Shown: in pieces, positions 11,497 through 27,338 of the stretch
Numbering within the stretch: position 1 is the stretch's first letter
Layout of the letters: each line of letters starts with the position of its first letter
Assembly: GCA_900315755.1 (NCBI GenBank)
Contig: ONAI01000020.1
Span: 1 to 49,713 of the forward strand
Length of the DNA: 49,713 bases
Direction: 5' to 3'
Origin: an uncultured Ruminococcus sp.
GTDB lineage: Bacteria; Bacillota; Clostridia; Oscillospirales; Ruminococcaceae
The notes under the pieces: model-generated
What the model was told of the DNA's origin: nothing
The model's database searches: none
Seen by the model: the letters and a program-made list of their open reading frames with translations, nothing else
Made by a program: the position numbers and the translations under genes

Positions 11497-11514
11497 AGTA
11501 TCCCTCCTGAAACA

Positions 11515-11547
11515 AGAAAAAGGCACTGCCCAAAATGCAGCGCCTTT
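11515..11547 (-). promoter_or_regulatory. Leader attenuator hairpin of nadE
   Basis: Read on the minus strand, AAAAGCAAAGGCGCTGC pairs with GCAGTGCCTTT across a 7-base loop and runs into TTTTTC. It begins about 15 bases after the predicted transcription start and ends before the nadE ribosome binding site. Position and sequence match the leaders at 11653, 16140, 18836 and 27275. Confidence 0.7.
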
Positions 11548-11563
11548 GCTTTTCAATAAGATT

Positions 11564-11592
11564 ATTATAGACTCAAAATACTGATATGTCAA
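11564..11592 (-). promoter_or_regulatory. Promoter of nadE
   Basis: On the minus strand TTGACA (11587-11592) and TATAAT (11564-11569) have 17-bp spacing, both boxes matching consensus. Confidence 0.88.
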
Positions 11593-11609
11593 GAAAAATT
11601 TTCTTGACA
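11587..11609. repeat. 23-bp palindrome joining two divergent -35 boxes
   Basis: TGTCAAGAAAA, one central base, then TTTTCTTGACA: a perfect 11-1-11 inverted repeat whose two ends are the -35 boxes of the nadE and GNAT promoters. A dimeric regulator bound here would affect both promoters; shared promoter architecture alone is the alternative. Confidence 0.7.
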
Positions 11610-11632
11610 AACGCAAAAGCGAGTGATATAAT
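11604..11632 (+). promoter_or_regulatory. Promoter of the GNAT gene and following operon
   Basis: TTGACA (11604-11609), a 17-bp spacer and TATAAT (11627-11632), with an extended -10 TGA. Confidence 0.88.
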
Positions 11633-11652
11633 ATTAGCAAAGCTAAGAAGCA

Positions 11653-11683
11653 ACGGCGCTGAGTAATTCAGCGCCGTTTTTTG
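11653..11683 (+). promoter_or_regulatory. Leader attenuator hairpin upstream of the GNAT gene
   Basis: AACGGCGCTGA pairs perfectly with TCAGCGCCGTT and is followed by a T-run, about 15 bases after the predicted start of transcription. It is entered through AGCAA, as in the other leaders. Such a promoter-proximal terminator would silence the operon unless read through. Confidence 0.75.
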
Positions 11684-11698
11684 TTTGGAGGTGATATG

Positions 11699-12160
11699 AT
11701 GTCACAGATAAGATACAAATGGACTGACGGCAATAACAAAGATTTTCAGAGGTTTTATCGATCCACCGAGGAATACTACAGCAGACTTGTAGGCGGAGTT
11801 CAAAATCGCCAAGGCTTTATTCCCTACAATATATCCGAAAGTATAGGCACTGTTCTCATAGCCTATGTTGATGATATTGCTGTTGGCTGTGCAGGACTGA
11901 AAAAATACTCGGAATCAGATGCGGAAATAAAGCGGGTATGGGTAGAACCGCAATACCGCAGACATCATATTGCTTCTGATATGATGAAAATGATAGAAGA
12001 AATGGCAAAGAAAATGCAATTTATACGGACTGTACTGCAAACTCGCAAATCAATGAGCGAGGCGATATCACTTTATGAAAAGCTTGGATATTACCGCATA
12101 AGAAATTATCCGCCATATGACAAGCTTGAAGGTGCGGTATGTTATGCGAAAGATCTGTAA
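11699..12160 (+). CDS. GNAT-family N-acetyltransferase
   Basis: A 153-residue protein with the GNAT fold. Strand beta-4 and the acetyl-CoA motif are in AEIKRVWVEPQYRRHHIAS (the usual Q/RxxGxG/A loop is RRHHIA), followed by the long helix MMKMIEEMAKKM and a C-terminal segment SMSEAISLYEKLGYYRI. Two adjacent ATG codons (11696, 11699) follow GGAGGTG; the second is better spaced. The substrate is unknown. It is 18 bases from the PEP/pyruvate-binding gene and under the same promoter and attenuator. Confidence 0.85.
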   Translation: MSQIRYKWTDGNNKDFQRFYRSTEEYYSRLVGGVQNRQGFIPYNISESIGTVLIAYVDDIAVGCAGLKKYSESDAEIKRVWVEPQYRRHHIASDMMKMIEEMAKKMQFIRTVLQTRKSMSEAISLYEKLGYYRIRNYPPYDKLEGAVCYAKDL

Positions 12161-12178
12161 AACAAGGGAGGTATCACT

Positions 12179-14749
12179 ATGACTGCATTTGACAGGATTT
12201 GTTCAGGAATACCCGAAATGGACACCGCACTTGATAATATAAGGCTCGGCGACAATGTTGTGTGGAGAGTTTCCGAACTCTCGGAATTTAAGCTGTTTAT
12301 GGAGCTCTATCTCAGGCAGGCTATCGCTGACGGAAGAAATATAATATATTTCCGCTTTGCAAGTCATGAGCCACTTGTAGAAAACTGCCCCGAGGTCAGG
12401 ACAATAGAGGTGCCGCTTTCCCACAGATTTGAGACGTTCACTGTTGACATACACAACGAAATAGAAAAGGCAGGCAGGAACGCTTTCTACATATTTGACT
12501 GCCTTTCGGAATTGCAGGCAATGTGGGCGACAGACCTCATGATGGGCAACTTTTTCAGAGTTACCTGTCCGTTCCTGTTCATACTTGATACAGTTGCATT
12601 TTTCCCTATAATCAGAGGAAAGCACTCCGTCAACGCCATAAACAAGATTCTTGATACAACACAGCTTTTCCTTGATGTATATTCAGATAAAAAGAATGTG
12701 TATGTCCGTCCCGAAAAAGTCTGGAACCGAAATTCGGATACCATGTTCCTGCCACATACATTCGAGCCTGAGAGCGGACGTTTTCGTCCCATACTTGATG
12801 GTGTAAAATCAAGCCGTTTTTATCAGGTTCTCGGGAACGCACAGCGCTCCGCTGACGAACAGTACATGGACTCGTGGGACAGATTTTTTAACAAGGCAAA
12901 GATACTTCACGAAAACGGAATTGACATAGCCGAGCAGTGCAGTAATATGTGCAATATCATGATGACACGAGACTCGAAAATGCGTCAGATGGTCAAAAAA
13001 CATTTCCGTCCTGAGGATTATTTCAGCGTCCGAGACCACATGATAGGCACGGGAATGATAGGCGGAAAAGCCTGCGGAATGCTGCTGGCGAGGGCTATTA
13101 TCAGAAATAGCGAGCCTGATATTGATGACGTCCTTGAGCCCCACGATTCCTTCTACGTTGGTTCTGATGTTTATTATACCTATATCGTTGACAATGATTT
13201 CTGGGATATGCGCATAAAGCAGAGAACAGAGGACGGCTACTTTGCACTTGCGGATAAGTTCGCAGAGCAGCTTATGAACGGTAAATTCTCAGATGAAATG
13301 CGTGAACAGCTTAACCGTATCATAGAATACTACGGACAAGACCCGTATATCGTCCGTTCAAGCAGTATCCTTGAGGACGGCTTCGGCAACGCTTTTGCAG
13401 GCAAGTATGAATCGGTTTTCTGCGCAAACAGAGGAACACTCGAGGAGCGGCTGGAGGAATTTGAAAAGGCGATAAAAACAGTCTACGCAAGCACTATGAG
13501 TCTTTCCGCACTGGATTACCGAAAGCGCCGTGGACTTGACAAGCGTGATGAACAAATGGCACTTTTGATACAGCGAGTTTCGGGCTCATATTACAGTTCG
13601 TACTATATGCCTTGCGCAGCCGGTGTCGGCTATTCGTACAGTCCATATAGTTTTCTGAAAAGCTCTGACCAGTCTGCGGGAATGCTTCGCCTTGTTATGG
13701 GACTTGGCACGTCTGCCGTTGACAGGACAGAGGGTTCATATCCGCGTCTTGTGAGCCTTGATATGCCTGAAAAAACTGTTTATTCAACTTATGCAGACAG
13801 GCATAGATTCTCACAGGGGAAGGTGGAGGTCATCAACACTTCTGTTCACGACCTTGAACGTCTGCCCCTTAGAACGATAGAGCCTGAGATACCTGAATAT
13901 CTGCAAAATATCCTTCTCGAGCACGACTTTGATGCAGAGAGCAGACTGCGGGAAATGGGACGCAGAGTGTCATCAACTTTTATCTCCTGCAATGGACTTG
14001 TCAGCAATAAAACGCTTATGTCGCAGATGCAGAGAATGCTTCGTTGCATACAGAATGAGTATGAGTATCCTGTCGATACGGAGTTTACCATAAATGTTTC
14101 CGATGAGGGCGACTATACCATTGATCTTTTGCAGTGCAGACCCTTGCAGGTCATTAAGGCCAAGTCGGGAGTTACTGTTCCCAATGATATACCGCAGGAG
14201 CATATTCTGCTTGAAAGCAAGGGCGCTTCAATGGGGCTTTCCAAAGCCTCAAAGCTGGATATTATAGTGTACGTTGATCCCGTCGTGTACTACAATATGC
14301 CTTACAGCGAGAAGAATTCCGTTGCGAAAATGATAGGCAAAATCAACTGGACTTACCGTAACAGCGGCAAGCATATGATGCTTATGGTGCCGGGCAGAGT
14401 CGGAACATCTTCGCCCGAACTTGGCGTACCTACATCATTTGCAGACATAAGCGAATTTGACGTTGTATGTGAAATGGAAGAAGCCCGTGCAGGCTACAAT
14501 CCCGAGCTTTCCTACGGAAGCCATATCTTTCAGGATTTAGTGGAGGCAGAGATACTTTATACCGCTGTATTCAACAACAGTAAAACGCTGCACTTCGCTC
14601 CCGAAAAGCTGAAGGAACTGCGGAATAAGCTTGAAGACATCGACGAAAACAGCGGCCTTGACGATGTTATACACGTCTATGACGTGAGCCGCTGCAAGTG
14701 CGAGCTTTACAATGACATCAAAAATGAGCATCTTCTGATAACTATCTGA
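12179..14749 (+). CDS. PEP/pyruvate-binding (PPDK N-terminal) domain protein with RecA/KaiC-like N-terminus
   Basis: An 856-residue protein. The first 200 residues resemble a RecA/KaiC-type domain (GIPEMDTALDNIRLGDNVVW) but without a Walker A P-loop. The centre is an ATP-grasp domain like the N-terminal half of pyruvate phosphate dikinase/PEP synthase, with GMIGGKACGML (about 292-302) and YIVRSSSILEDGFGNAFAGKYE (about 400-421). I found no phosphohistidine swivel motif (TxGxxSHAA) and no PEP-binding barrel, so it is not a complete PPDK or PEP synthase. The C-terminal part has the conserved-looking runs GRVGTSSPELGVPTSF and YGSHIFQDLVEAEI. Its role is unknown; phosphotransfer to an unknown partner is possible. 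It follows the GNAT gene under nitrogen-type leader control. Confidence 0.8.
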   Translation: MTAFDRICSGIPEMDTALDNIRLGDNVVWRVSELSEFKLFMELYLRQAIADGRNIIYFRFASHEPLVENCPEVRTIEVPLSHRFETFTVDIHNEIEKAGRNAFYIFDCLSELQAMWATDLMMGNFFRVTCPFLFILDTVAFFPIIRGKHSVNAINKILDTTQLFLDVYSDKKNVYVRPEKVWNRNSDTMFLPHTFEPESGRFRPILDGVKSSRFYQVLGNAQRSADEQYMDSWDRFFNKAKILHENGIDIAEQCSNMCNIMMTRDSKMRQMVKKHFRPEDYFSVRDHMIGTGMIGGKACGMLLARAIIRNSEPDIDDVLEPHDSFYVGSDVYYTYIVDNDFWDMRIKQRTEDGYFALADKFAEQLMNGKFSDEMREQLNRIIEYYGQDPYIVRSSSILEDGFGNAFAGKYESVFCANRGTLEERLEEFEKAIKTVYASTMSLSALDYRKRRGLDKRDEQMALLIQRVSGSYYSSYYMPCAAGVGYSYSPYSFLKSSDQSAGMLRLVMGLGTSAVDRTEGSYPRLVSLDMPEKTVYSTYADRHRFSQGKVEVINTSVHDLERLPLRTIEPEIPEYLQNILLEHDFDAESRLREMGRRVSSTFISCNGLVSNKTLMSQMQRMLRCIQNEYEYPVDTEFTINVSDEGDYTIDLLQCRPLQVIKAKSGVTVPNDIPQEHILLESKGASMGLSKASKLDIIVYVDPVVYYNMPYSEKNSVAKMIGKINWTYRNSGKHMMLMVPGRVGTSSPELGVPTSFADISEFDVVCEMEEARAGYNPELSYGSHIFQDLVEAEILYTAVFNNSKTLHFAPEKLKELRNKLEDIDENSGLDDVIHVYDVSRCKCELYNDIKNEHLLITI

Positions 14750-14751
14750 GC

Positions 14752-14785
14752 AAAGGCGCTTATCCGCAGCGGATAGGCGCTTTTT
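14752..14785 (+). terminator. Intergenic hairpin of the shared leader type
   Basis: AAAGGCGC ... TATCC pairs with GGATA ... GGCGCTTT around GCAGC and is followed by a T-run. It is nearly identical to the leader hairpins at 16140 and 18836 and is entered through GAGCAA, but no promoter was seen directly before it. It starts within 3 bases of the preceding stop codon, so it acts inside the operon, as a terminator or a read-through control point for the FUSC-HAD gene. Confidence 0.75.
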
Positions 14786-14799
14786 ATGGAGTGAGTATA

Positions 14800-16068
14800 A
14801 TGAAACTTACATTTCCGCCCATTGGTGCAAGAATTATAAAATCATCTGTCGCAGTCGGATTGTGCATAGCAGTGTATTTCATAAGGGCACTTTTGCCAGT
14901 AAGCAGCGGCATACCTTTCTACGGAGTGCTGGCAGCTTTATGGTGTATGCAGCCATATTCCGACACCACGAAGAACAATGCCTTTCAGCGGTCAGCAGGC
15001 ACACTTATAGGTGCAGTATACGGACTTATATTTCTGCTGATGTTCCGCAGGCTTGGCTTGGTAATACCTGAGCTTGTCTATATCTCGGCAAATATTTTCA
15101 TAATCCCTGTGATATACACAACTGTTGTTATGAACAAGCGAACCGCTTCTTTTTTCTCATGCGTTGTGTTCCTGAGCATTGCGCTGACTCATTCCTTTGA
15201 CGAGAACCCTTATATATTCGTGCTGAACAGAGTTGTTGATACGTTTATAGGAATAATAATAGGAGTTGCCGTGAACGATCTCCGTCTGCCTGTGAAACGT
15301 AATGATAATACGCTGTATGTAAGCGGAATTGATGATGTACTTATATCGCCGACCTCTAATTACAGCAAGGTGGAGCTGAACAGGCTCATCCGCAGCGGAG
15401 TGAAGTTCACTATCTCCACTACCCGTACCCCTGCGGAGCTTATGTCCATTATGAAGGGTACAGAATTGCAGCTTCCGGCTATAGTTATGGACGGAGCAGC
15501 GATGTATGACATTAAGGAAAAGCAGTATCTTGAAATGACATATCTTTTGCCAAATGCTTCGGCAGAAGCCGAAAGGATAATTTCAGAGTGCGGACTGAAC
15601 TGTTTTATTAATACTATGCTCGATACCACTCTGCTGATATATTATGGAAAGCTGAATAATTCCGCGGAAAAAGAACTGTTTGAGTCACATAAACACTCTC
15701 CTTACAGAAACTATATCAGCTCTGAATACCGAAGGAAGAATATTAACGAGCGTGTTCTGTATATTACTGTCATTGCCGAAAAGATAGATATATTTCTTCT
15801 TGAAAGAAAGCTGCGTCAGCAGCTTGGAGTAAGTGCAAGGATAAGTATTTCCGACTCTGAATATGAAGGATTCATGTACCTTAAAATCTTCTCCCCTTGT
15901 GCTTCAAAAGAGAATATGCTGTTGAAGCTAAAAGAATATGCAGGTGCGGAAAGAGTGGTGACATTCGGCAGTATACGCGGCAAATACGACATTTATATAG
16001 ACGACGGCGGCGGAAATGCAACTGTGAAAAAGCTCAAAAAAGTTTGCAGATTCCATGGGAATTTTTGA
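14800..16068 (+). CDS. FUSC/aromatic-acid-exporter-like membrane domain fused to a HAD-like domain
   Basis: A 422-residue fusion. Residues about 10-165 contain six hydrophobic helices with the pattern of the FUSC/aromatic acid exporter family (YFIRALLPVSSGIPFYGVLAALWCMQP; RSAGTLIGAVYGL; ALTHSFDENPYIFVLNRVVDTFIGI). Residues about 170-422 resemble a Cof-type HAD phosphatase (SGIDDVLISPTSNYSKVE; KFTISTTRTPAELM), but the nucleophile motif DxDGT is replaced by SGIDDVL, so it may be inactive. ATG 14800 follows GGAGTGA. Its neighbours are the PEP/pyruvate-binding gene upstream and citrate synthase downstream. Transport of an acidic metabolite is an inference only. Confidence 0.72.
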   Translation: MKLTFPPIGARIIKSSVAVGLCIAVYFIRALLPVSSGIPFYGVLAALWCMQPYSDTTKNNAFQRSAGTLIGAVYGLIFLLMFRRLGLVIPELVYISANIFIIPVIYTTVVMNKRTASFFSCVVFLSIALTHSFDENPYIFVLNRVVDTFIGIIIGVAVNDLRLPVKRNDNTLYVSGIDDVLISPTSNYSKVELNRLIRSGVKFTISTTRTPAELMSIMKGTELQLPAIVMDGAAMYDIKEKQYLEMTYLLPNASAEAERIISECGLNCFINTMLDTTLLIYYGKLNNSAEKELFESHKHSPYRNYISSEYRRKNINERVLYITVIAEKIDIFLLERKLRQQLGVSARISISDSEYEGFMYLKIFSPCASKENMLLKLKEYAGAERVVTFGSIRGKYDIYIDDGGGNATVKKLKKVCRFHGNF

Positions 16069-16090
16069 CACACATGGCTTTGTCAGACTA

Positions 16091-16119
16091 TTGACAATTC
16101 GCAAAAGTTGTGATATCAT
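16091..16119 (+). promoter_or_regulatory. Promoter of the citrate synthase-isocitrate dehydrogenase operon
   Basis: TTGACA (16091-16096) and TATCAT (16114-16119) with 17-bp spacing and an extended -10 TGA. Promoter and leader are almost identical to those at 18784. Confidence 0.82.
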
Positions 16120-16139
16120 AAAGGTGTAATAAAGCAAGC

Positions 16140-16176
16140 AAAGGCGCTTATCCGCATGGATAGGCGCCTTTCTTAT
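16140..16176 (+). promoter_or_regulatory. Leader attenuator hairpin of citrate synthase operon
   Basis: AAAGGCGC-T-TATCC and GGATA-G-GCGCCTTT form a 14-bp stem (one T-G pair) with a GCAT loop, followed by CTTATT. It begins about 15 bases after the predicted start, after the single-stranded run AAAGCAAGC. Confidence 0.75.
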
Positions 16177-16193
16177 TTGAGGTGATACCGTTG

Positions 16194-17531
16194 ATGACTA
16201 CAAAAGAAGTAATGTATTCAGCTTTCTCGGAGGGAAACAACATTCCTGCTGAATATTTTGATAAGTACAGCGTAAAGCGAGGACTGAGGAATCCTGACGG
16301 AACAGGCGTTATGGCAGGAGTCACCAATATCTGTAATGTTCATGGCTATGTTGTAGATGACGGTGAGAAAAAGCCCACAGAGGGAAAGCTGATCTTCAGA
16401 GGCTACAGTATCAATGACCTTATCGAAAAAGCTGAAGCTGAGGACAGATTTGGTTATGAGGAGATAGTTTTTCTTCTGCTTACAGGCAGACTTCCGAACA
16501 GGAACGAGCTTGATGAATTCATAATGACATTATCTGATGAACGTGCGCTCCCTCAGGACTTCTTTGAAGATATGATATTAAAAGCGCCATCGCCCAATAT
16601 CATGAATAAAATGGCAAGAGCTGTTCTCTCGCTGTATTCTTATGACAACGCTCCGGAATCAAAAACTTCCGAGCATGAGGTTGATACAGCCGTATCACTC
16701 ATTGCAAAGATGCCTGTTATAATGGTCTGTGCCTATGAGACAAAAAGAAGATGCTATGATGATAAATCAATGATAATGCACCCTCTGATAAAGGGACAAT
16801 CCACAGCGGAAAACATTCTTTCAACTCTCCGCACTGACAGAAAGTTCACACACGATGAAGCAAAACTGCTTGACCTAATGCTTATGCTCCATGCTGAACA
16901 CGGCGGAGGCAACAACTCAACATTTACCTGCCGTGTACTTACTTCATCCGGAACAGACCCGTATTCTGCATATTCAGCAGCGATAGGTTCACTGAAAGGT
17001 CCACGCCACGGCGGTGCGAACCATAAAGCACTTGAAATGCAGGAGATAATAAAGGCAAATGTTAAAAACTGGGAGAATGATGACGAAGTAGCTGATGTGC
17101 TGAGAAAACTGCTGTGCAAGGAAATAGGTGACGGCAGCGGTCTGATATATGGTATGGGACACGCTGTGTATACGCTGTCTGATCCGAGAGCTGTAATACT
17201 GAAAAAGTATGCAGGAATGATGGCTGAGGGTACAGAGTTTGAAAAGGAATTCCGCCTTATTGAATCGATAGAGCGTCTTACGCCCAAAGTTTTTGAAGAT
17301 GTAAAAAGGTTGGGAAAAGCAATGTGTGCAAATATTGATATGTACAGCGGATTCGTCTATAAGATGCTGAGAATACCACCCGACCTGTTTACTCCTCTGT
17401 TTGCTGTTTCAAGAATGGCAGGCTGGTGCGCTCACAGATTCGAGGAGATAAACAGCGGCAGGCGTATCATGCGTCCCGCATACAAATCGATCAATAAGGA
17501 AAAGCCATACATTGATATGGAAAAAAGATAG
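16194..17531 (+). CDS. gltA: Citrate synthase
   Basis: A 445-residue citrate synthase-fold enzyme condensing oxaloacetate and acetyl-CoA. Catalytic His motifs are visible in GPRHGGANHKALEM (about residue 268-281) and GMGHAVYT (about 321-328); the second substrate-binding loop precedes the C-terminal RMAGWCAHRFEE. ATG 16194 was chosen; an in-frame TTG at 16191 is equally close to GAGGTGAT. It is 14 bases upstream of isocitrate dehydrogenase, so the pair makes 2-oxoglutarate for ammonium assimilation. 2-Methylcitrate synthase is a less likely alternative given the partner gene. Confidence 0.9.
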   Translation: MTTKEVMYSAFSEGNNIPAEYFDKYSVKRGLRNPDGTGVMAGVTNICNVHGYVVDDGEKKPTEGKLIFRGYSINDLIEKAEAEDRFGYEEIVFLLLTGRLPNRNELDEFIMTLSDERALPQDFFEDMILKAPSPNIMNKMARAVLSLYSYDNAPESKTSEHEVDTAVSLIAKMPVIMVCAYETKRRCYDDKSMIMHPLIKGQSTAENILSTLRTDRKFTHDEAKLLDLMLMLHAEHGGGNNSTFTCRVLTSSGTDPYSAYSAAIGSLKGPRHGGANHKALEMQEIIKANVKNWENDDEVADVLRKLLCKEIGDGSGLIYGMGHAVYTLSDPRAVILKKYAGMMAEGTEFEKEFRLIESIERLTPKVFEDVKRLGKAMCANIDMYSGFVYKMLRIPPDLFTPLFAVSRMAGWCAHRFEEINSGRRIMRPAYKSINKEKPYIDMEKR

Positions 17532-17545
17532 AAAGGCTGATAAAT

Positions 17546-18760
17546 ATGGAAAAGATCAAAATGAAAACACCGCTTGTCGAAATGGACGGCGATGAAATGA
17601 CACGTGTGATATGGAAGATGATAAAGGATATACTTATTATTCCGTATATTGACCTGAAGACGGAATATTATGACCTCGGACTTGAATACAGAAATAAAAC
17701 TGATGATAAAGTCACTGTTGAATCAGCAGAAGCAACCAAGAAATACGGAGTGGCGGTAAAATGCGCAACTATCACGCCGAATGCTGCCAGAATGGACGAA
17801 TATGAGCTGAAAGAGATGTGGAAGTCTCCAAACGGCACAATAAGAGCGCTCCTTGACGGAACAGTGTTTCGTGCTCCCATACTTGTTGATGGTATCACGC
17901 CATATATCCCGACATGGACAAAGCCTATCACTATTGCCCGTCATGCTTACGGGGATGTATATAAAAATACCGAAATGCGGGTCGAAAAGGGCAGCAAGGC
18001 TGAGTTAAAAGTCACTGATAAGAACGGCAACGGATCATTTGAGCTGATATATGATTTTTCTGACAGTGACGGAATCATTCAGGGACTTCATAATAAGGAC
18101 AAATCCATAGAAGGATTTGCGCGTTCTTGCTTCAATTATGCTCTTGATACAAAGCAGGACTTATGGTTTGCAACTAAAGACACTATTTCCAAGAAATACG
18201 ATCATCGTTTCAAGGATATTTTTGCCGACATATACGAAAAAGAATATAAAGTACGGTTTGAAGCCATTGGTATAGCATATTTCTATACACTTATAGATGA
18301 TGCAGTCGCAAGGGTTATCCGCTCTGATGGCGGCTTCATATGGGCGTGCAAAAACTACGACGGAGATGTAATGTCGGATATGGTCGCTACTGCTTATGGC
18401 AGTCTTGCAATGATGACATCTGTACTTGTATCCCCTGACGGCAAATACGAATACGAAGCTGCTCATGGAACTGTGCAGAGGCACTATTACAGGTATCTCA
18501 AGGGTGAGAAAACATCGACCAACCCTGTAGCAACTGTTTTCGCATGGAGCGGTGCGCTGAGAAAACGAGGCGAGCTTGATGTAATCCCTGCGCTTTGTGA
18601 CTATGCTGACAGGCTCGAAAAAGCAATACTTCAGACGATAAGTGATGGTATAATGACGGGTGATCTTGCAGCAATATCAAGCTTGAAAAACAAGCAGACT
18701 GTAGATACAGAAACGTTTCTGACCGAAACAGGAAAACGGCTGTGGATGATGTATGAGTAA
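17546..18760 (+). CDS. icd: NADP-dependent isocitrate dehydrogenase (eukaryotic-like subfamily)
   Basis: A 404-residue enzyme oxidising isocitrate to 2-oxoglutarate. Typical segments are PLVEMDGDEMTRVIWKMIKD at the N-terminus, KCATITPNAARMDEY, SPNGTIRALLDGTVFRAPI (substrate loop) and YEYEAAHGTVQRHYY with STNPVATVFAWSGAL (cofactor region). This pattern belongs to the homodimeric subfamily shared with mitochondria. It follows citrate synthase in the same operon and ends just before the next promoter. Confidence 0.93.
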   Translation: MEKIKMKTPLVEMDGDEMTRVIWKMIKDILIIPYIDLKTEYYDLGLEYRNKTDDKVTVESAEATKKYGVAVKCATITPNAARMDEYELKEMWKSPNGTIRALLDGTVFRAPILVDGITPYIPTWTKPITIARHAYGDVYKNTEMRVEKGSKAELKVTDKNGNGSFELIYDFSDSDGIIQGLHNKDKSIEGFARSCFNYALDTKQDLWFATKDTISKKYDHRFKDIFADIYEKEYKVRFEAIGIAYFYTLIDDAVARVIRSDGGFIWACKNYDGDVMSDMVATAYGSLAMMTSVLVSPDGKYEYEAAHGTVQRHYYRYLKGEKTSTNPVATVFAWSGALRKRGELDVIPALCDYADRLEKAILQTISDGIMTGDLAAISSLKNKQTVDTETFLTETGKRLWMMYE

Positions 18761-18783
18761 CATAAAAAATTATTGTCATTCTA

Positions 18784-18812
18784 TTGACAATTCGTTTCAG
18801 TTGTGATATCAT
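18784..18812 (+). promoter_or_regulatory. Promoter of the ATP-grasp/alpha-E/transglutaminase operon
   Basis: TTGACA (18784-18789) and TATCAT (18807-18812) with 17-bp spacing and extended -10 TGA. Confidence 0.82.
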
Positions 18813-18835
18813 AAAAGTGTAATAAAGCAAAAAGC

Positions 18836-18870
18836 AAAGGCGCTTATCCGCATGGATAGGCGCCTTTATT
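18836..18870 (+). promoter_or_regulatory. Leader attenuator hairpin of the ATP-grasp operon
   Basis: The stem-loop has the same bases as the one at 16140 (AAAGGCGC ... GCAT ... GGCGCCTTT), followed by ATTGTTT. The upstream leader differs only by a short insertion (AAGCAAAAAGCAAAGG). Confidence 0.75.
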
Positions 18871-18896
18871 GTTTGCAGAAGAATGGAGTGATAACA

Positions 18897-20188
18897 ATGA
18901 CACAGCAGAATAATGAACAGTGCACAAAGGCAGTGGGCAACGCAGACGAGATCAATGAGCTTTTAAGACGTTACGGCGTTAAGTTCGGCATATATAAAAA
19001 CGGTGTTTTCAATGAACAGTTTTTCCCGTTCGATCCGATACCGAGGGTGATTCCTGCGGAGGATTTCAAGAGCATTGAAAAGGGACTTGTTCAGCGTGTT
19101 AACGCCCTGAATGAGTTCCTTTTTGATATTTACCACGAAAAAAAGATAGTCAGAGACGGAATCATTCCCGAGGACTTCATCTACATCTCAAAGGGGTACC
19201 TTGCTCAGTGCGAGGGGATAACTCCGAAAAACAAGGTTTACAGCCATATTTCGGGTATCGACCTTGTACAGGCAAAGGACGGCGAGTGGTACATATTGGA
19301 GGATAATCTGCGGATACCGTCGGGCGCGTCCTATCCGCTCATCGCAAGGGAGCTTACCCGTATCGCCGCACCGCAGGCGTTTCAGGAAAACGATATAGTC
19401 GATAACCGCAACTATGCAAAGCTGCTGAAAGAGACCATGGAGAATGCAAACTGCGGCGGCATTAGGGCGATACTAACTCCCGGGCGGTATAATGCGGCAT
19501 ACTTTGAGCACTCCTATCTGGCGGAGCATACTGGTTCGGTACTTGTGCAGAACGATGAGCTTTTTGTCGAGGACAACATCCTTTATCACCGAACTTATTC
19601 GGGCGGCAAGACAAGGATAGGCGTTCTTTACCGCAGAATTGCCGATGAATATCTTGACCCGCTGAACTTCCTGCCTGAATCGCTTATCGGAATACCCAAT
19701 CTCATGGAGGTCTACCGCAGCGGAAATGTGGGAATTATAAACGCTCCGGGAAACGGCGTGGCTGACGACAAGGGAATCTATTATTTTGTGCCTAAGATGA
19801 TAAAATACTATCTTGACGAGGAGCCGATACTTCACAATGCTCCGACGTATCTGCCGTTCTATGAGGACGACATGAAGTACGTTCTGGACAATCTCGAAAA
19901 GCTGGTCATCAAGGACGTTGCGGAGGCCGGCGGATACGGAGTAGTCTTCGGCAACGATCTTACAAAAGAAAAATTAGAGGAATTCCGCAGAACTATAATC
20001 ATTTGCCGATTCTCGACAACGGCGAAACGGTGATGCGTAAAGCCGACCTGAGAGCATTTGTGCTGACAGGCGAAATAACAAAGGTGTGGGCGTCGGGACT
20101 TACACGGTTCTCGCGAAATCCCGATTCATTCGTAGTAAACTCATCGCAAGGAGGAGGCTTTAAGGATACATGGGTACTATCTCGTTAG
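18897..20188 (+). pseudogene. Circularly permuted ATP-grasp protein, frame broken
   Basis: The frame from ATG 18897 runs to a TGA at 20033 and encodes a CP-ATP-grasp domain (YSHISGIDLVQ, GEWYILEDNLRIPSGASY, RRIADEYLDPL, NAPGNGVADDKGIYYFVP, AEAGGYGVVFG). After LEEFRR it derails. The normal C-terminus (LPILDNGETVMRKADLRAF to NSSQGGGFKDTWVL) continues in another frame from about 19990 to 20188. Compared with my recollection of the family, about 12-14 residues that usually include an IAQ motif are missing at the join. So the lesion looks like a deletion not divisible by three, not a single-base slip. These proteins are predicted peptide-bond-forming ligases acting with alpha-E and transglutaminase partners. 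A sequencing or assembly fault is possible. Confidence 0.78.
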
Positions 20189-20871
20189 AACACAGCGACC
20201 GCCTTTACTGGCTGGGACGCTATACCGAAAGGGTTTTCACAACTCTGAAAACATTGCAGAAGCTCTATGACAGAACCATAGACAATAGGTCCGGATATGC
20301 TGAATATCTGGGATATTTCGGGCTTTCCGACAGCTACGGCAGCAACAGGGATTTCTTCCGCAGCTTTCTTTATGACAGTACAAATCCGAACTCCGTCGCA
20401 TACAGTCTTGAAAGAGCATATGACAACGGCATAGTTCTCCGTGAGGAAATTTCAACGGAAACGCTTTCATTTTTGCAGCTTGCAAAGGACACCCTTGCAA
20501 AGTCTGAAATGTCGGAAAATACACGGCTTTCACTTCTTCCGCTTGTGGATCAGTTGTATGCGTTCTGGGGCTGCATTGCCGACAATGTATACGATGAAGA
20601 AAAGAAAAACATCATCTACTGCGGAAAAACAGTGGAGCGGCTCGACCTGTATATGCGCACAGGCTATTCCTACAAATTGGTCAAAAAGGAGTTCGGACGC
20701 CTTTGCAAGAGACTTAAAAATGTCCCCGAAAATACGCCGTTCTGCTGCAATTCACAGTATTTCGGAGAGATCGAGGATATAGTAGGCTCTGCGGAGAAAT
20801 ATTCATCGGAAAGCAGCACCGCACTCGTTGATCTTGAACATCTTTTTGAACCAATGGGGGCGGCGGTATGA
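20170..20871 (+). CDS. Alpha-E domain protein
   Basis: A 233-residue, mostly helical protein of the alpha-E (DUF403) family, recognisable by the opening LEHSDRLYWLGRYTERVFTTLKTLQKLYD and by YCGKTVERLDLYMRTGYSY. This family nearly always sits beside a circularly permuted ATP-grasp gene, as here. Its start lies inside the end of the broken ATP-grasp gene (19-bp overlap), with GGAGGAGG upstream. It overlaps the transglutaminase by 4 bp. No catalytic residues are established for the family; a scaffold or accessory role is inferred. Confidence 0.88.
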   Translation: MGTISLEHSDRLYWLGRYTERVFTTLKTLQKLYDRTIDNRSGYAEYLGYFGLSDSYGSNRDFFRSFLYDSTNPNSVAYSLERAYDNGIVLREEISTETLSFLQLAKDTLAKSEMSENTRLSLLPLVDQLYAFWGCIADNVYDEEKKNIIYCGKTVERLDLYMRTGYSYKLVKKEFGRLCKRLKNVPENTPFCCNSQYFGEIEDIVGSAEKYSSESSTALVDLEHLFEPMGAAV

Positions 20872-21638
20872 AACGAATTAACTTCTATTTTTCCACCAAG
20901 CTGACATTCGATGATTACGTTCACGACCACAGCTTTGCACTTCGTATAATGCCTCCGGAGAGCACTTCTCAGCATATTCTTTCGTGCAGTCTGAATATTT
21001 CTCCATATGTTCCGACTCAGCAGACTGTTGACGCATTCGGCAACAATGTGACGGCAGGCTATCTGAGGGACGACCACCGCTACCTTGACTTTGAAATAAA
21101 GGGAACTGCTGAGGTGGACTCCGTAAAGCACCGCACTGACTATATGCCCTGCTATCTTTATCAGTCCGAGTACACTGCTCCAGATGATGAGCTGAGAAAG
21201 TTCTATGCGGAGCTGAAGGACAGATATATCGGCAGTATTCCCGACAGAGCTGCATTTTTCAGCGATATATTGTCGGACCTCATAGAGTACAAAAAGGACG
21301 TCACTGATACTTCAACAACTGCGGCGCAGGCGTTTGCGCTGAAAGCCGGCGTCTGTCAGGACTTCTCCCACATACTCATCTCACTTCTGCGAATGGACGG
21401 TATCGCCGCACGTTACATTGCCGGACTTGCATTCTGTGACGGCGAGACACACTCATGGGTTGAGTACTGGACGGGCGATCACTGGGAGGGCATCGACCCT
21501 GCGAATAACTGTGCCGTGAACGATGATTACCTTGTGATATCACAGGGACGTGATTTCCGTGACTGCGCCATTGACAGAGGCGTGATGTTCGGAAAGTACA
21601 CAAAGCAGTTACAGCTTGTGCGTTCGGTGCTGTCATAA
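20868..21638 (+). CDS. Transglutaminase-like cysteine peptidase/amidase
   Basis: A 256-residue protein with an N-terminal beta-rich region, typical of bacterial transglutaminase-like proteins linked to alpha-E, and a papain-like core. The triad is complete: C163 in GVCQDFSHIL, H195 in ETHSWVEYW and D210 in GIDPANN. Family members hydrolyse or transfer amide bonds; linked to the ATP-grasp, it may process the peptide the ligase makes. No signal peptide is seen, so it is cytoplasmic. It starts in the ATGA overlap with the alpha-E gene. Confidence 0.9.
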   Translation: MKRINFYFSTKLTFDDYVHDHSFALRIMPPESTSQHILSCSLNISPYVPTQQTVDAFGNNVTAGYLRDDHRYLDFEIKGTAEVDSVKHRTDYMPCYLYQSEYTAPDDELRKFYAELKDRYIGSIPDRAAFFSDILSDLIEYKKDVTDTSTTAAQAFALKAGVCQDFSHILISLLRMDGIAARYIAGLAFCDGETHSWVEYWTGDHWEGIDPANNCAVNDDYLVISQGRDFRDCAIDRGVMFGKYTKQLQLVRSVLS

Positions 21639-21655
21639 TGAAAGGAGGACTTCCA

Positions 21656-22594
21656 ATGATAGAGACTATTGCAAGCGCCGCACTTGCAGTCAATGAAAAT
21701 CTGAATATCCAGAAACGGCGGATACAGAACGGCAAAAACAAGACCCGTCTGAGCCTTGTTACAGGCACTCACGGCGACGAGCTGGAGGGGCAGTATCTTG
21801 CCTATATGGTGGGGAAATTCGTCGATGAGCACATAGATCAGCTTGACGGTATCCTCGACATTTACCCTGCGCTGAATCCAATGGGAATAGACAGCATTAC
21901 CCGCGGGATTCCCATGTTTGATCTGGACATGAACCGTGTTTTTCCCGGCACAAAGGACGGCACGATGATAGAGGTCATCTGCTCCTCGATAATTGACGAT
22001 CTCAGCGGCTCTGACGTCTGCATTGACGTTCATTCAAGCAATATTTTTCTCCGTGAGATTCCTCAGATACGCATGAGCGTTCCCACTGCGCCGACACTTC
22101 TGCCCTATGCAAAAATGATGAACGTGGACTTTGTGTGGGTACATGAATCTGCGACAGTTCTGGAGTCCACTCTCGCTCATACGCTGAACACAAGGGGAAC
22201 CAAAACTCTCGTTGTGGAAATGGGAGTGGGTATGCGTATAACCAAGGAATACTGCAAGCAGCTTTTCGGCGGCATACTCAATCTCATGAAAGAGCTGGGA
22301 ATGTGGCACGGCGAGACTGTTCCGGTCCGTGAGCCTGTTGTGTCCGAGGGACACGAGGTAGGCTTTGTGAACTCCGGTGCGGCTGGAATATTCGTGCCTG
22401 TTTCAAGCTTTGGCGATACCGTTAAGAAAGGCGACCACATCGGCGATGTAGTCGATCCGCTGACGTCAAAGGTGGTCGAAAAAGTTCTTGCAGTCTGTGA
22501 CGGAATGATATTTACGATGCGTGAATATCCCGTAGTTTACGGCGGTTCGCTGCTTGCAAGGATCTTGATGACATCGGGAGGTGAGGAGCAATGA
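21656..22594 (+). CDS. M14/AstE-like succinylglutamate desuccinylase/aspartoacylase family hydrolase
   Basis: From ATG 21656 (after AAAGGAGGA) the protein has 312 residues. Zinc ligands of the family are present: H39 and E42 in GTHGDELEG, H126 in DVHSSN, and the likely catalytic E188 in TLVVEMG. The C-terminal about 100 residues form a lipoyl-like beta-barrel (AAGIFVPVSSFGDTVKKGDHIG). The family cleaves N-acyl or peptide amide bonds near carboxylates. It precedes, with 4-bp overlap, a paralogue lacking these ligands. Confidence 0.85.
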   Translation: MIETIASAALAVNENLNIQKRRIQNGKNKTRLSLVTGTHGDELEGQYLAYMVGKFVDEHIDQLDGILDIYPALNPMGIDSITRGIPMFDLDMNRVFPGTKDGTMIEVICSSIIDDLSGSDVCIDVHSSNIFLREIPQIRMSVPTAPTLLPYAKMMNVDFVWVHESATVLESTLAHTLNTRGTKTLVVEMGVGMRITKEYCKQLFGGILNLMKELGMWHGETVPVREPVVSEGHEVGFVNSGAAGIFVPVSSFGDTVKKGDHIGDVVDPLTSKVVEKVLAVCDGMIFTMREYPVVYGGSLLARILMTSGGEEQ

Positions 22595-23514
22595 AGAAGA
22601 AAATTCTCTTTTCGATGAAGTCGCCTTACCGCGAACAGCTGGACATCATCGGCTACCGTTTCGGACACGGCAAAAAGGCTCTCGCAATAGTGGGGGCTAT
22701 GCGCGGAAACGAGGTCCAGCAGATGTATGTTTGCAGCCGTATGGTGCAGGAGCTTAAAAAGCTGGAGTCAAAGGGACGTATCGCCGAGGACTGCGAGATA
22801 CTTGTTATCCCCTGCGTGAACTACTACTCCATGAACATCGGCAAGCGTTTCTGGGCAATGGACAACACCGACATCAACCGAATGTTTCCCGGCTACGATC
22901 AGGGTGAGACTACTCAGCGCATCGCAGACGGTATATTCACCAGGATAAAGGACTACGAATACGGCATACAGCTTGCCAGCTTTTATCAGCAGGGAAACTT
23001 CCTGCCCCATGTAAAGGTCATGGACACCGGCTTTACGGACAGTGAGCTGATGAAGGACTTCGGACTTGAATTCGGCATTGTCCGCAAGCCGCGTCCCTAT
23101 GATACCACAACGCTCAATTACAACTGGCAGATATGGGAGACTAAAGCGTTTTCTGTTTATGCAAATGCCACTGATGAGATAGACGAAAAAGCAGCTGATG
23201 AGGCTGTGAACGCTATCCTTAGATTTATGGATAAACGGGGTATCGTCAGCGCTAAAACTCCTCCGGGATATGTAACGGTGATAATGAACGAGAGCGATAC
23301 AAGGCAGGTGCAGTCCGAGGCGGCAGGCATATTCGTCAGCCTCACGGACATAGGTAAAACTGTTGAGAGGGGAGACATACTCGGACGCATCACCGCCCCC
23401 TTTGACGGCGAGCTTGTATCAGAGATAAGATCACCTGTTTCGGGAACGGTCTATTTTGAGTATCACAGTCCGCTTATCAACGCGAAAACAGTTTGTTTCA
23501 AGATAATCAAGTGA
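22591..23514 (+). CDS. M14/AstE-like paralogue without zinc ligands (probable pseudoenzyme)
   Basis: A 307-residue paralogue of the preceding protein with the same order of segments. Aligned by eye, THGDELEG becomes MRGNEVQQ (His lost, Glu kept), DVHSSN becomes LASFYQ (His lost), and VVEMG becomes SVYAN (Glu lost). DINRMFPG and the C-terminal beta-barrel (AAGIFVSLTDIGKTVERGDILG) are kept. It is therefore probably not a metallo-hydrolase and may pair with or regulate the active neighbour. The 4-bp overlap suggests translation in equal amounts. Confidence 0.75.
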   Translation: MKKKILFSMKSPYREQLDIIGYRFGHGKKALAIVGAMRGNEVQQMYVCSRMVQELKKLESKGRIAEDCEILVIPCVNYYSMNIGKRFWAMDNTDINRMFPGYDQGETTQRIADGIFTRIKDYEYGIQLASFYQQGNFLPHVKVMDTGFTDSELMKDFGLEFGIVRKPRPYDTTTLNYNWQIWETKAFSVYANATDEIDEKAADEAVNAILRFMDKRGIVSAKTPPGYVTVIMNESDTRQVQSEAAGIFVSLTDIGKTVERGDILGRITAPFDGELVSEIRSPVSGTVYFEYHSPLINAKTVCFKIIK

Positions 23515-23524
23515 GGTGTATAAA

Positions 23525-23698: not shown

Positions 23699-23699
23699 A

Positions 23700-24689: not shown

Positions 24690-25390
24690 CAGTGCCGAAC
24701 AAATTCTTTGAAAATCAGTCTGCTGTTAATATCCTTTCGATAAGACAGTTCGGGGTGCCATTGTATTGCCCAGAGGAATCTGTGACCGGGGGCGCAGACA
24801 GCTTCGACAAGTCCATCAGGAGCATATGCCATGCTCTTTAATTCAGGCGACAAACTGCGGATTCCCTGATGATGATAACTGTTTACGGGGATGGTATCCG
24901 TTTTCAGAAGATCGTACAAAGGAGAACTGTGTTCTATACTAACTTCATGTATCGAAACGTCATACGGCGGCTTCTGACAGTGTGGTACCATATCAGAAAA
25001 CTGGGATGGGATATCCTGCCAGAGAGTTCCGCCAAGTGCGGCATTTATAAGCTGTATACCACGACATATGCCAAGAATCGGCTTATCAAGCTCAATTATG
25101 TGATCAAGAAGAAGCACCTCCATAGCATCTCTTTCGGGACTGCACTCACCGCAGGCACTGATCTTTCTTTCAGAATAAAGCTTCGGTTCAACGTCCTGAC
25201 CGCCTGTAAATATAAATCCATCGCACATAGATACTATTTGTTCGATAACTTTAATGTCACTGGTCAGCGGAAGCATTACGGGCAGACCACCCGCTTCAAT
25301 TATTCCTCCGAAATAGCCGGGAAGCATCCAATAACTTTTTTTATTATAGTCAACAAGGGGGATAACTCCAATAACAGGCCTTTTACTCAT
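24686..25390 (-). CDS. Class-I glutamine amidotransferase-like (peptidase C26, PuuD-type) hydrolase
   Basis: A 234-residue protein of the gamma-glutamyl hydrolase family. The nucleophile C109 lies in PILGICRGIQLINAALGG, and H212/E214 in WHPE complete the triad; the oxyanion segment TGGQDVEP is also present. PuuD-type members hydrolyse gamma-glutamyl amides such as gamma-glutamyl-GABA. It has a GGAGGATTAATAA ribosome binding site and lies 45 bases downstream of asparagine synthetase, with no promoter or terminator between, so the two are co-transcribed. It probably recycles glutamate or ammonia from gamma-glutamyl compounds. Confidence 0.88.
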   Translation of the reverse strand: MSKRPVIGVIPLVDYNKKSYWMLPGYFGGIIEAGGLPVMLPLTSDIKVIEQIVSMCDGFIFTGGQDVEPKLYSERKISACGECSPERDAMEVLLLDHIIELDKPILGICRGIQLINAALGGTLWQDIPSQFSDMVPHCQKPPYDVSIHEVSIEHSSPLYDLLKTDTIPVNSYHHQGIRSLSPELKSMAYAPDGLVEAVCAPGHRFLWAIQWHPELSYRKDINSRLIFKEFVRHC

Positions 25391-25435
25391 TTATTAATCC
25401 TCCAATTAAACGGTCTGCACAGCTTTGCGTTAGGT

Positions 25436-27016
25436 TTATTTTCCACTCTCACCGTAATTTGAAAGTACGCGGGCAGAGGGATCGTTTACATCACAGCCCT
25501 CCCAATCCTTGTTCGGCATCCAGAAATCAACTACCATTTTGCTGTTATTCGGATAGAACTTCTCAAATATCTCACGGTAAAGCAACGACTCCTTGGTAAA
25601 GGGCTTTGCATGGGAATACTTTGTGCAGTCAAGCTCAAATTCTTCGTCCAAATAATAATTCTCGGCATATTCTTTAAGGTGATCCACCATAGAGTGACCT
25701 ACCGCGTCTGAGAAAGCTGCCTTTTCACGGTAAAGGATATCGCGGGGCAGATAGTCTCCCTCAAAAGCGCGGCGAAGCAAGTATTTTCCTTTATTGTATT
25801 TATTGATCTTCAATTCAGGATCGACAGCCATTACATATTTAACGAAGTCAAGGTCGCCAAAAGGAACTCTTGCTTCAAGAGAATTTACCGAGATACAACG
25901 ATCTGCACGGAGAACATCATACATATGGAGTTCTTTTACACGCTTGACGGACTCCTTCTGAAAAGCTTCCGCAGACGGCGCAAAGTCTGTATACTTATAG
26001 CCGAAAAGCTCGTCTGAGATCTCCCCTGTGAGAAGGACGCGTATATCGGTCTGCTCGTGTATAGCTTTGCATAGCAGGTACATTCCTATGCTTGCACGAA
26101 TTGTGGTTATATCATAAGTTCCGAGCAGATGTATGACATCTTCAATAGCAGAAATCACATCATCTTTTGTGATAATGGTCTCTGTATGATCGCTTCCGAT
26201 ATAGTCAGCCACCTGTTTAGCATATTTAAGGTCGATAGCGTCCGTGTTCATGCCGATAGCGAAGGTCTTTATGGGTTTGTCGCTTTTTTTCTGTGCTATG
26301 GAGCATACAAGTGACGAGTCAAGACCGCCGGATAGTAAAAATCCAACTTTTGCATCAGAGTCGAGACGCTTTTCAACGCCTGCCACCAGTTTATCGTGGA
26401 TATTTCTGCATACTGTGTCGATATCATCACTGATCACTTTGTCAACAGATGTGATATTGCAGTAGCAGTGGAATTCTCCGTTTTTATAATAATGTCCCGG
26501 TGGAAATGGCGTGATTTTTTTACATATCTTTACAAGGTTTTTAGGCTCGCTGGCAAACACCATTGTGCCATCGTCGGACTTTCCGTAATACAGCGGACGT
26601 ATGCCTATCGGGTCTCTTGCGGCTATGAATTGACGCTCAACACAATCATATATAACACAGGCAAATTCAGCATCGAGCAGTGAGAACATATCCGTTCCGT
26701 ATTCTCTGTATAAGGGAAGAAGAATTTCGCAGTCGCTGTCGCTTCTGAAAATATAGCCCATATCAATGAGCTTGTCCCTGAGCTTTCGGAAACCATATAT
26801 CTCGCCATTACATACTGCAAAATCTCCATCAAGTTCAAAAGGCTGCATTCCCTCGGGAGTAAGTCCCATTATAGACAGGCGCTGAAAGCCGAGAATACCG
26901 TCGGGTACCTTTACTATCCTTTGATCGTCAGGACCTCGTGAGACTGTAGTCTTTAAACCTTCCATAACTTTTCCTGTACCGCCGCTGATGCCGCAGTAAC
27001 ACATTATCGTACACAT
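25436..27016 (-). CDS. asnB: Asparagine synthetase (glutamine-hydrolysing)
   Basis: A 526-residue AsnB. The N-terminal Ntn glutaminase domain should begin with Cys2 (MCTIMCYCGISGG; a second start, MCYCG, would also expose a Cys). SRGPDDQ, GFQRLSIMG and CNGEIYG are typical. The synthetase domain has the PP-loop SGGLDSS (about residue 247-253). ATG 27016 follows GGAGGAATACAGAA; the longer frame upstream covers the leader hairpin and is not translated. It uses glutamine to amidate aspartate and heads an operon with the C26 hydrolase. Its own promoter and attenuator-like leader lie upstream. Confidence 0.93.
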   Translation of the reverse strand: MCTIMCYCGISGGTGKVMEGLKTTVSRGPDDQRIVKVPDGILGFQRLSIMGLTPEGMQPFELDGDFAVCNGEIYGFRKLRDKLIDMGYIFRSDSDCEILLPLYREYGTDMFSLLDAEFACVIYDCVERQFIAARDPIGIRPLYYGKSDDGTMVFASEPKNLVKICKKITPFPPGHYYKNGEFHCYCNITSVDKVISDDIDTVCRNIHDKLVAGVEKRLDSDAKVGFLLSGGLDSSLVCSIAQKKSDKPIKTFAIGMNTDAIDLKYAKQVADYIGSDHTETIITKDDVISAIEDVIHLLGTYDITTIRASIGMYLLCKAIHEQTDIRVLLTGEISDELFGYKYTDFAPSAEAFQKESVKRVKELHMYDVLRADRCISVNSLEARVPFGDLDFVKYVMAVDPELKINKYNKGKYLLRRAFEGDYLPRDILYREKAAFSDAVGHSMVDHLKEYAENYYLDEEFELDCTKYSHAKPFTKESLLYREIFEKFYPNNSKMVVDFWMPNKDWEGCDVNDPSARVLSNYGESGK

Positions 27017-27047
27017 TTCTGTATTCCTCCAACGTTTGATAAATAAT

Positions 27048-27090
27048 AAAAAAGACGTTCCAACAGACAAATAATCTGCTAAAACGTCCT
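27048..27090 (-). promoter_or_regulatory. Leader attenuator hairpin of asnB
   Basis: On the minus strand GACGTTTTAGCAGA pairs with TCTGTTGGAACGTC (a few mismatches) and is followed by TTTTTTATT. It begins about 10-15 bases after the predicted start and is entered through AACAAGG, a variant of the shared AGCAARGGCGC entry. Confidence 0.65.
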
Positions 27091-27101
27091 TGTTTAGAAA
27101 C

Positions 27102-27130
27102 ATACTATCACTTTTAAGCTGAAATGTCAA
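27102..27130 (-). promoter_or_regulatory. Promoter of asnB
   Basis: On the minus strand TTGACA (27125-27130) and TAGTAT (27102-27107) are spaced 17 bp, with extended -10 TGA. Confidence 0.82.
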
Positions 27131-27228
27131 CAGAAAAAATGCTGATCTTGCATTTATGTTAAAATTTGATAGATGTTTTCATCAAATTCACAGTAAAATG
27201 TGAGATAGGCCAAATTTTAAAAAAGCTA

Positions 27229-27257
27229 TTGACAAATCGAAGTAAAGGGAATATAAT
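27229..27257 (+). promoter_or_regulatory. Promoter of amt-PII
   Basis: TTGACA (27229-27234) and TATAAT (27252-27257) with 17-bp spacing. It is divergent from the asnB promoter, with about 100 AT-rich bases between the two -35 boxes. Confidence 0.88.
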
Positions 27258-27274
27258 GGCATTGTAAACAGCAA

Positions 27275-27318
27275 GGGCGCTGCAGACTATTAGTCTGCGG
27301 CGCTGTTTTGGTTTTATA
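27275..27318 (+). promoter_or_regulatory. Leader attenuator hairpin of amt-PII
   Basis: GCGCTGCAGACT and AGTCTGCGGCGC (one T-G pair) form a 12-bp stem around ATT, followed by TGTTTTGGTTTT. It is entered through CAGCAAGG about 10 bases after the predicted transcription start. Confidence 0.75.
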
Positions 27319-27338
27319 GCGATAAATCCACGCACAAT

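Follow-up and report, generated by a model that had tools for sequence, protein, structure and literature searches.

Which factor could read the starts of nitrogen genes in an uncultured rumen Ruminococcus sp. is the question raised by contig ONAI01000020.1 (GenBank assembly GCA_900315755.1), a stretch of 49,713 nucleotides that is called the window here. Six of its transcription units, between 11.5 and 27.3 kb, start with a near-consensus promoter followed by a strong intrinsic terminator: nadE, GNAT-PPDK, citrate synthase-icd, an ATP-grasp operon, asnB and amt-PII. From sequence comparison, we consider it highly probable that these leaders attenuate transcription and that in each of them an ANTAR-domain protein acts through one hexaloop.

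Promoters and terminators were scanned over positions 11000-30000 and compared with shuffled sequence. The number of promoters (42 found, 35.5 expected in shuffles) is near the shuffle level, so that only the top of the list is informative. All three 12/12 matches belong to leaders (nadE, GNAT-PPDK and amt), as do two of the three 11/12 matches (citrate synthase and ATP-grasp) and one of the three 10/12 matches (asnB), and the spacer is 17 nt in all six. The terminator scan gave 22 hairpins against 15.4 expected, the top seven listed being the six leader hairpins and a second terminator in the amt leader. This ranking bears out an earlier note on this DNA, which had described six units in 16 kb with a 17-nt-spaced promoter and an intrinsic terminator. 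The seventh hairpin of that note, before the FUSC-HAD gene, was missed by the terminator scan yet folds at -20.4 kcal/mol; it begins at the PPDK stop codon, and the promoter scan found no promoter of its own for this gene. The leader elements are as follows, with loops in square brackets, hexaloops located by motif search and folding unless stated otherwise, and terminators with their folding energies.

11564..11592, minus strand: nadE promoter, TTGACA-17-TATAAT, 12/12
11539..11550, minus strand: nadE hexaloop AGC[AAAGGC]GCT
11519..11547, minus strand: nadE terminator, with the 3' half of the hexaloop as part of it, -17.0 kcal/mol
11604..11632, plus strand: GNAT-PPDK promoter, 12/12
11649..11660, plus strand: GNAT-PPDK hexaloop AGC[AACGGC]GCT
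11652..11678, plus strand: GNAT-PPDK leader terminator, -18.9 kcal/mol
14748..14761, plus strand: FUSC-HAD hexaloop GAGC[AAAGGC]GCTT, at the PPDK stop codon
14752..14783, plus strand: terminator-like hairpin upstream of FUSC-HAD
16091..16119, plus strand: citrate synthase-icd promoter, 11/12
16136..16149, plus strand: citrate synthase hexaloop AAGC[AAAGGC]GCTT
16140..16171, plus strand: citrate synthase leader terminator, tail CTTATTT, -22.6 kcal/mol
18784..18812, plus strand: ATP-grasp operon promoter, 11/12
18832..18845, plus strand: ATP-grasp hexaloop AAGC[AAAGGC]GCTT
18836..18867, plus strand: ATP-grasp leader terminator, tail ATTGTTT, -22.6 kcal/mol
27102..27130, minus strand: asnB promoter, TTGACA-17-TAGTAT, 10/12
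27082..27095, minus strand: asnB hexaloop, from a looser promoter plus CAANG search and folding
27051..27091, minus strand: asnB leader terminator, -22.3 kcal/mol
27229..27257, plus strand: amt-PII promoter, 12/12
27269..27282, plus strand: amt-PII hexaloop CAGC[AAGGGC]GCTG
27276..27304, plus strand: amt-PII leader first terminator, -22.7 kcal/mol
27332..27345, plus strand: second hexaloop of the amt-PII leader, GCAC[AATGGG]GTGT, 4 bp, read from the sequence (7-bp stem in relatives)
27339..27380, plus strand: amt-PII leader second terminator, from terminator scan and folding

Exact matches to AGCAANGGCGC on both strands number seven in the window against 0.17 expected, with at most one in any of 100 shuffles. 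Six stand at the hairpins of nadE, GNAT, FUSC, citrate synthase (citS), ATP-grasp and amt, while the seventh (14216) lies within the PPDK coding sequence. The entry motif that the earlier note saw at all units but asnB is thus present at these six, and asnB proves to carry a variant of it, AAAC[AAGGAC]GTTT. Over the entire assembly there are 10 copies of AGCAANGGCGCT: to the seven of the window are added two in coding sequence (L003 and L004) and a further one, in L012, that lies antisense to a terminator-like hairpin; by place, these are six hairpins, three coding sequences and one antisense position. With so low a count the motif is not a general mark of terminators, and this possibility, which would have spoken against the earlier note, was rejected.

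What AGCAANGGCGCT encodes is predicted to be a mini-hairpin, AGC[AANGGC]GCT, with a six-base loop that has A at position 1 and G at position 4. A predicted A1/G4 hexaloop of this kind is the signature of ANTAR (AmiR/NasR/EutV) antitermination targets, for which it has been described as the recognition element (Ramesh et al. 2012, PMC3369931). A1 and G4 occur in the loops of all seven window hairpins, a constancy partly imposed by the searches. The 3' half of the hexaloop doubles as the 5' arm of the terminator, and because the two structures use common bases, the two folds are mutually exclusive. The terminators of the window fold at -17 to -23 kcal/mol and the mini-hairpins at +0.4 to -3.7 kcal/mol; with the terminator so much stronger, the default state is expected to be OFF. 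What the earlier note took for a conserved entry plus lower stem is indeed conserved, but is better read as a hexaloop mini-hairpin in competition with the terminator. Its placing of the stem 10-20 bases after the start did not hold throughout, as the first loop base lies 4 nt (asnB), 9 nt (amt) or, in the others, 10, 13, 14 and 17 nt from the predicted start, taken as the 7th nt after the -10 element.

Conservation and targets among relatives

Searches for such leaders covered the genome of the window and its genus, order and class. In the genome itself, a looser search for a promoter followed by CAANG, which fixes loop positions 1, 2 and 4, gave 32 matches against 3 in the reversed control. 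A stem of at least 3 bp is present in nine of the 32, namely the six window units and three on contig C121, which the genome has in addition to those of the earlier note. The three comprise a second amt, pyrG, and gltB-gltD-glnA-ANTAR-purF. The pyrG unit has CAGC[AAGGGA]GCTG and, read by eye, a type-III glutamine synthetase (GSIII) behind pyrG; divergent from it, the gltB unit has the leader AAC[AACGAC]GTT. TTTT is found in seven of the nine leaders, citS and ATP-grasp having interrupted T runs, and loop positions 3, 5 and 6, left free by the search, vary.

Across the genus, TATAAT followed after 4-30 nt by AGCAANGGCGCT was found in 32 of 100 genomes and the reversed pattern in none (the earlier note had suggested looking for the motif behind TATAAT in Ruminococcus); some of these matches are coding sequence (e.g., L023, L027 and L037). 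For the order the pattern was TTGACN, 16-18 nt, TATAAT, 3-30 nt and CAANGGCG, which fixes one stem pair and would miss longer leads. Of 295 genomes, 122 contain it and 4 contain its reversed form. Among the matches listed, at least 145 distinct sites were read in 93 genomes, the window's own genome being kept apart; six matches close to sequence ends, some of which may duplicate counted sites, were left out. The stem has at least 3 bp at 120 of the 145 sites, and a T run (TTTT) accompanies 113 of these 120 as compared to 8 of the 25 others. Spacing from promoter to loop peaks at 12-16 nt.

The stem covaries, as the earlier note had proposed to check. At the order sites listed, pairs 2-6 are formed in 77.8% of cells versus 55.5% after shuffling (largest of 1000 shuffles, 60.7%), and with only the 74 unique stems the values are 61.6% and 45.4% (largest, 52.7%). 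Flanks thus vary in sequence while pairing is kept, examples being ACAGC/GCTGT, AAGGC/GTCTT, TGAGC/GTTCA, TGAAC/GTTCA and AAGAC/GTCTG. In the terminator, neither half of the mini-stem has the other as its partner, so their coupling speaks for the mini-hairpin. As to the competing fold, 144 of 168 leaders, versus 33-58 when shuffled, have a downstream arm able to pair with the 3' half of the loop plus the stem.

In a draw of 245 genomes from the class, 9 of which belong to the order, the pattern occurs in 62, and outside the order in 54 of 236; the reversed control gave one match, within the order. On the loci returned, 14 of 20 class sites read, all outside the order, have a stem and a T run, and they precede genes judged by eye to be GSIII, amt, asnA, pyrG, purC and amidotransferase-type genes. 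The first genes behind 113 order sites were called by a simple start-codon rule, with one representative per small family checked against Pfam. They are GSIII (48), glutamate-synthase amidotransferase (28), amt (8), gdhA (5), purF (3), pyrG, purA, purC and asnA (2 each), and gltB, asnB, PPDK and ATP-grasp (once each), with nine unrelated or unclear. Genes that serve nitrogen assimilation or use glutamine predominate among the targets. In the purA leaders of genomes G372 (L115) and G196 (L133), the hexaloop stem reaches 7 bp.

The leaders also go together with ANTAR genes. All 32 genus genomes with the pattern have one, compared with 60 of 68 others (Fisher P 0.04). PF03861 was detected in 168 of the 295 order genomes: on the raw pattern in 97 of the 122 with it and 71 of the 173 without, and on validated sites in 68 of 72 versus 81 of 194 (Fisher P 1e-16). 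Validated sites have a stem of at least 4 bp and TTTT, which leaves out 39 of the 145; 29 pattern-positive genomes whose sites were not among the matches listed are left out of this comparison. The genomes being related, the Fisher values overstate the link. Of the four exceptions, one (G386) shows, about 7 kb from the site, a strong receiver-part match (E 1.5e-17) that a contig end truncates, and another (G382) has only a weak match of this kind (E 0.016, 27% identity) on the contig of its site. The genome of the window has two ANTAR proteins (PF03861), both in nitrogen operons. ANTAR genes cluster with glutamine synthetase (GS) and glutamate synthase (GOGAT) genes, as in gltB-gltD-glnA-ANTAR-purF after its hexaloop leader and likewise in loci of the order. 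There, a recurring locus has, with variations, GSIII or gdhA, two divergent hexaloop leaders and then GATase-gltB-Fe-S-oxidoreductase-GXGXG-GS-ANTAR, and in several relatives the ANTAR gene closes the operon that a hexaloop leader begins.

One hexaloop and its possible readers

Known dual-hexaloop ANTAR targets (AmiR, NasR, EutV; PMC3369931) resemble these leaders in the A1/G4 hexaloop at the 5' foot of the terminator, the ANTAR gene in the genome and the nitrogen targets; they differ in that here there is one hexaloop per terminator, at the 5' end of the transcript, with no room for the upstream hairpin (P1). Only 0-6 nt separate the predicted start from the hairpin in 146 of 168 leaders, which leaves the upstream hexaloop of classical targets without space: a minimal P1 would fit in 9 of the 168, and an upstream A1/G4 hexaloop is found in only one. 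The dual form is defined by two hairpins with a short linker, and these leaders do not fit it. From their sequences, the leaders would work like ANTAR antitermination and represent a single-hexaloop, 5'-terminal variant of it.

The likeliest alternative, which we nonetheless regard as improbable, is that the classical pair exists after all, with its other hexaloop at a different place in the leader. In its favor, further A1/G4 hexaloops (at least 5 bp, within ~175 nt downstream) occur in 48 of 167 leaders versus 7-22 for seven other loop classes; examples are the amt leader of the window and GSIII leaders elsewhere. The loop was not fixed in that test, and no other sign of an A1/G4 preference is as free of bias. 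However, in the leaders folded, most further hexaloops belong to a terminator of their own where one is visible, which suggests one hexaloop per terminator and sometimes two such units consecutively (amt, 27332-27380). Dual motifs have been described with linkers of 5-12 nt in Enterococcus faecalis eut (PMC3369931) and 2-25 nt in an actinobacterial search, and close partners, 14-40 nt downstream, are at background here (19 of 168 leaders versus 12-28 for nine other classes). The idea of a concealed partner loop nearby was therefore rejected.

Still less probable is another sequence-specific protein that reads AGCAANGGCGC as linear RNA or DNA, with the hexaloop a by-product. Conservation of the motif is strong in both window and genus, two genomes with purA leaders of this form (G196 and G372) lack a convincing ANTAR gene, and ANTAR binding is itself deduced from homology; on the other hand, the flanks change in the order with pairing kept, to the extent given above, and the co-occurrence with ANTAR genes and the shared loci speak against a reader of a linear motif. 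Constitutive promoter-proximal terminators that fix a low basal level with no regulator are scarcely credible: the terminators are strong and always present, but termination needs neither a conserved loop nor a covarying mini-stem, and the leaders are associated with nitrogen genes and ANTAR genes.

The earlier note had left open whether the one sensor it postulated was RNA or protein. A common trans-acting sensor is well supported, an ANTAR protein being the candidate, whereas an RNA-only sensor is unlikely, as the predicted starts leave next to no transcript ahead of the terminator. A riboswitch, a T-box and a leader peptide were rejected on the same 0-6 nt, together with the Rfam result: no family matched in the window at gathering score, and a permissive search of the amt leader returned 13 matches, all far under gathering scores.

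Second attenuators with their own terminators are seen in amt and pyrG leaders (window 27332-27380, L017, L034, L121 and L276) in the form CATACAC[AANGGG]GTGTATG, the loop in L121 and L276 being GAAGGG, with G instead of A at position 1. The gltB leader of L121 (reverse strand, ~2870-2885) has a further hexaloop, TGTTC[AATGGC]GAGCA, with no T run and shortly before the gltB start; it may act on translation, or be chance.

ANTAR proteins, their neighbors and the proposed mechanism

Of the EutV residues in contact with G4 or the stem, both ANTAR proteins of this genome keep a part, namely Lys149, Glu160, Met172, Asn173 and Arg175, the second protein having been mapped to EutV by eye. The protein on contig C57 is 100% identical to one in the Ruminococcus flavefaciens metagenome-assembled genome SIG534. 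Both receivers have Asn at the usual phospho-Asp place. An ANTAR frame could be read in 30 of 32 genus loci (L052 and L240 gave no match to the search expression); in these 30, the best PF03861 hits of the genus and mostly of one type, the position, assigned by hand, is Asn in 16, Asp in 7 and Cys or Gly in 7.

Each of the two ANTAR genes directly follows a GS paralogue with a damaged active site.

L072, 187-1479, minus strand: GS paralogue with damaged catalytic residues, ANTAR protein L001
L073, 178-1455, minus strand: GS paralogue with damaged catalytic residues, ANTAR protein L002

The copy on C57 has E129K, E212K and H269S and has lost the flap Glu, while the copy on C121 has E129S, a changed flap Glu, R339G and D50T, changes read as damage by the roles that these residues have in active GS. 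The GSGMH motif reads GSAL in 24 of 25 GS pieces beside the 30 genus ANTAR frames. In an alignment of 13 copies taken from further genera in the order, metal ligands are lost in three, the flap Glu alone is changed in five, and the remaining five show no change at the residues checked, so that a rule by which GS beside ANTAR is always dead was rejected. Asn-type receivers together with adjoining degenerate GS suggest that a GS-type partner, not phosphorylation, may gate the ANTAR proteins, and a GS-type nitrogen sensor is possible for the two considered here. In Bacillus, active GS is the nitrogen sensor for GlnR/TnrA, a DNA-binding regulator encoded beside it. The proposed sensor likewise is a GS-type protein beside a regulator gene; unlike in Bacillus, the paralogues are degenerate, the neighbor is an RNA-binding-type ANTAR protein and the interaction is a proposal.

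In the mechanism that we propose, RNA polymerase would start at the near-consensus promoter, and the first structure to emerge would be the 3-7-bp hairpin with the loop A-A-N-G-N-N. With ample nitrogen, the terminator would form by default and transcription end a few dozen bases into the transcript. An active ANTAR protein, judging by its homologs, would grip A1 and G4 of the hexaloop as it leaves the polymerase and so block the terminator, nitrogen or glutamine limitation being the likely signal for read-through. More speculatively, a GS-type partner would replace phosphorylation in gating both ANTAR proteins. Gene content makes read-through under nitrogen limitation plausible, and so does a functional precedent, NitR of Clostridium saccharobutylicum, an ANTAR protein through which antitermination switches on GS/GOGAT genes when nitrogen is limiting (review, PMC6316151); the present regulon also has citS-icd, nadE, pyrG and others.

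In the EutV-RNA structure (Walshe et al. 2022, PMC8934654), the ANTAR dimer touches one hexaloop at a time. The authors name a single hexaloop as the minimal binding motif but maintain that antitermination involves contact with one loop after the other. That study foresees one-hexaloop ANTAR targets and asks for examples; it expects single sites where polymerase sets no time limit, whereas those reported here lie in transcription attenuators. The leaders suggest that a single hexaloop can suffice if it is the first thing transcribed. The wider proposition, that nitrogen control in much of Clostridia depends on this one-hexaloop switch and that the Ruminococcus ANTAR proteins are gated by an adjoining dead GS turned nitrogen sensor, is tentative, and we would sooner expect it to fail in some part than to hold entire.

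Several points weigh against the single-hexaloop attenuator. Published EutV antitermination needs both loops (PMC3369931), a requirement that Walshe et al. keep (PMC8934654), and at the present leaders ANTAR binding, read-through and transcription starts are predicted. Tyr164 of EutV, which stacks on G4, is His in both ANTAR proteins, and Arg142 and Arg168 are lost. The mini-hairpins of nadE and GNAT (3 bp) and of asnB (+0.4 kcal/mol) are very weak. Since the searches fixed A1, A2 and G4, the constancy of these bases in the sets found is partly by design. Finally, 71 of the 168 ANTAR genomes of the order gave no site with the strict pattern, to which the two purA genomes mentioned above add the reverse case.

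If the attenuator reading is true, the ANTAR target class extends to single, 5'-terminal hexaloops. The leaders form a large natural set of the kind foreseen in general terms by Walshe et al. (PMC8934654), bear directly on whether antitermination requires two loops, and point to a candidate master regulator by which Clostridia of the rumen and gut would govern ammonia assimilation. Two published ANTAR-RNA searches (Ramesh et al. 2012, PMC3369931, and the actinobacterial one) required two hairpins and so would miss them. A literature search in one collection found no paper on this regulon, though some leaders may stand in the supplementary tables of Ramesh et al.

Genes of the window

Gene identities in the window come from Pfam searches.

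9583..11502, minus strand: nadE, glutamine-dependent NAD synthetase; target
11681..14749, plus strand: GNAT acetyltransferase and PPDK_N protein; targets
14791..16068, plus strand: FUSC-HAD fusion protein
16182..18760, plus strand: citrate synthase and isocitrate dehydrogenase; targets
18852..23514, plus strand: ATP-grasp, Alpha-E, transglutaminase-like and two AstE/AspA-type genes; targets, operon assumed
25436..27130, minus strand: asnB, open reading frame as listed, with the true start downstream of the leader
27420..31398, plus strand: amt-PII fusion and type-III glutamine synthetase; targets, operon membership of the second gene assumed

The PPDK_N-domain protein (856 aa, 12179-14749) is paired with the GNAT protein, and no NCBIfam model reached its cut-off for it. 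The five consecutive genes at 18852-23514, after a nitrogen-type leader, suggest an operon of peptide or amide metabolism. At 14791-16068, a FUSC-type membrane domain and a HAD hydrolase are joined in one gene.

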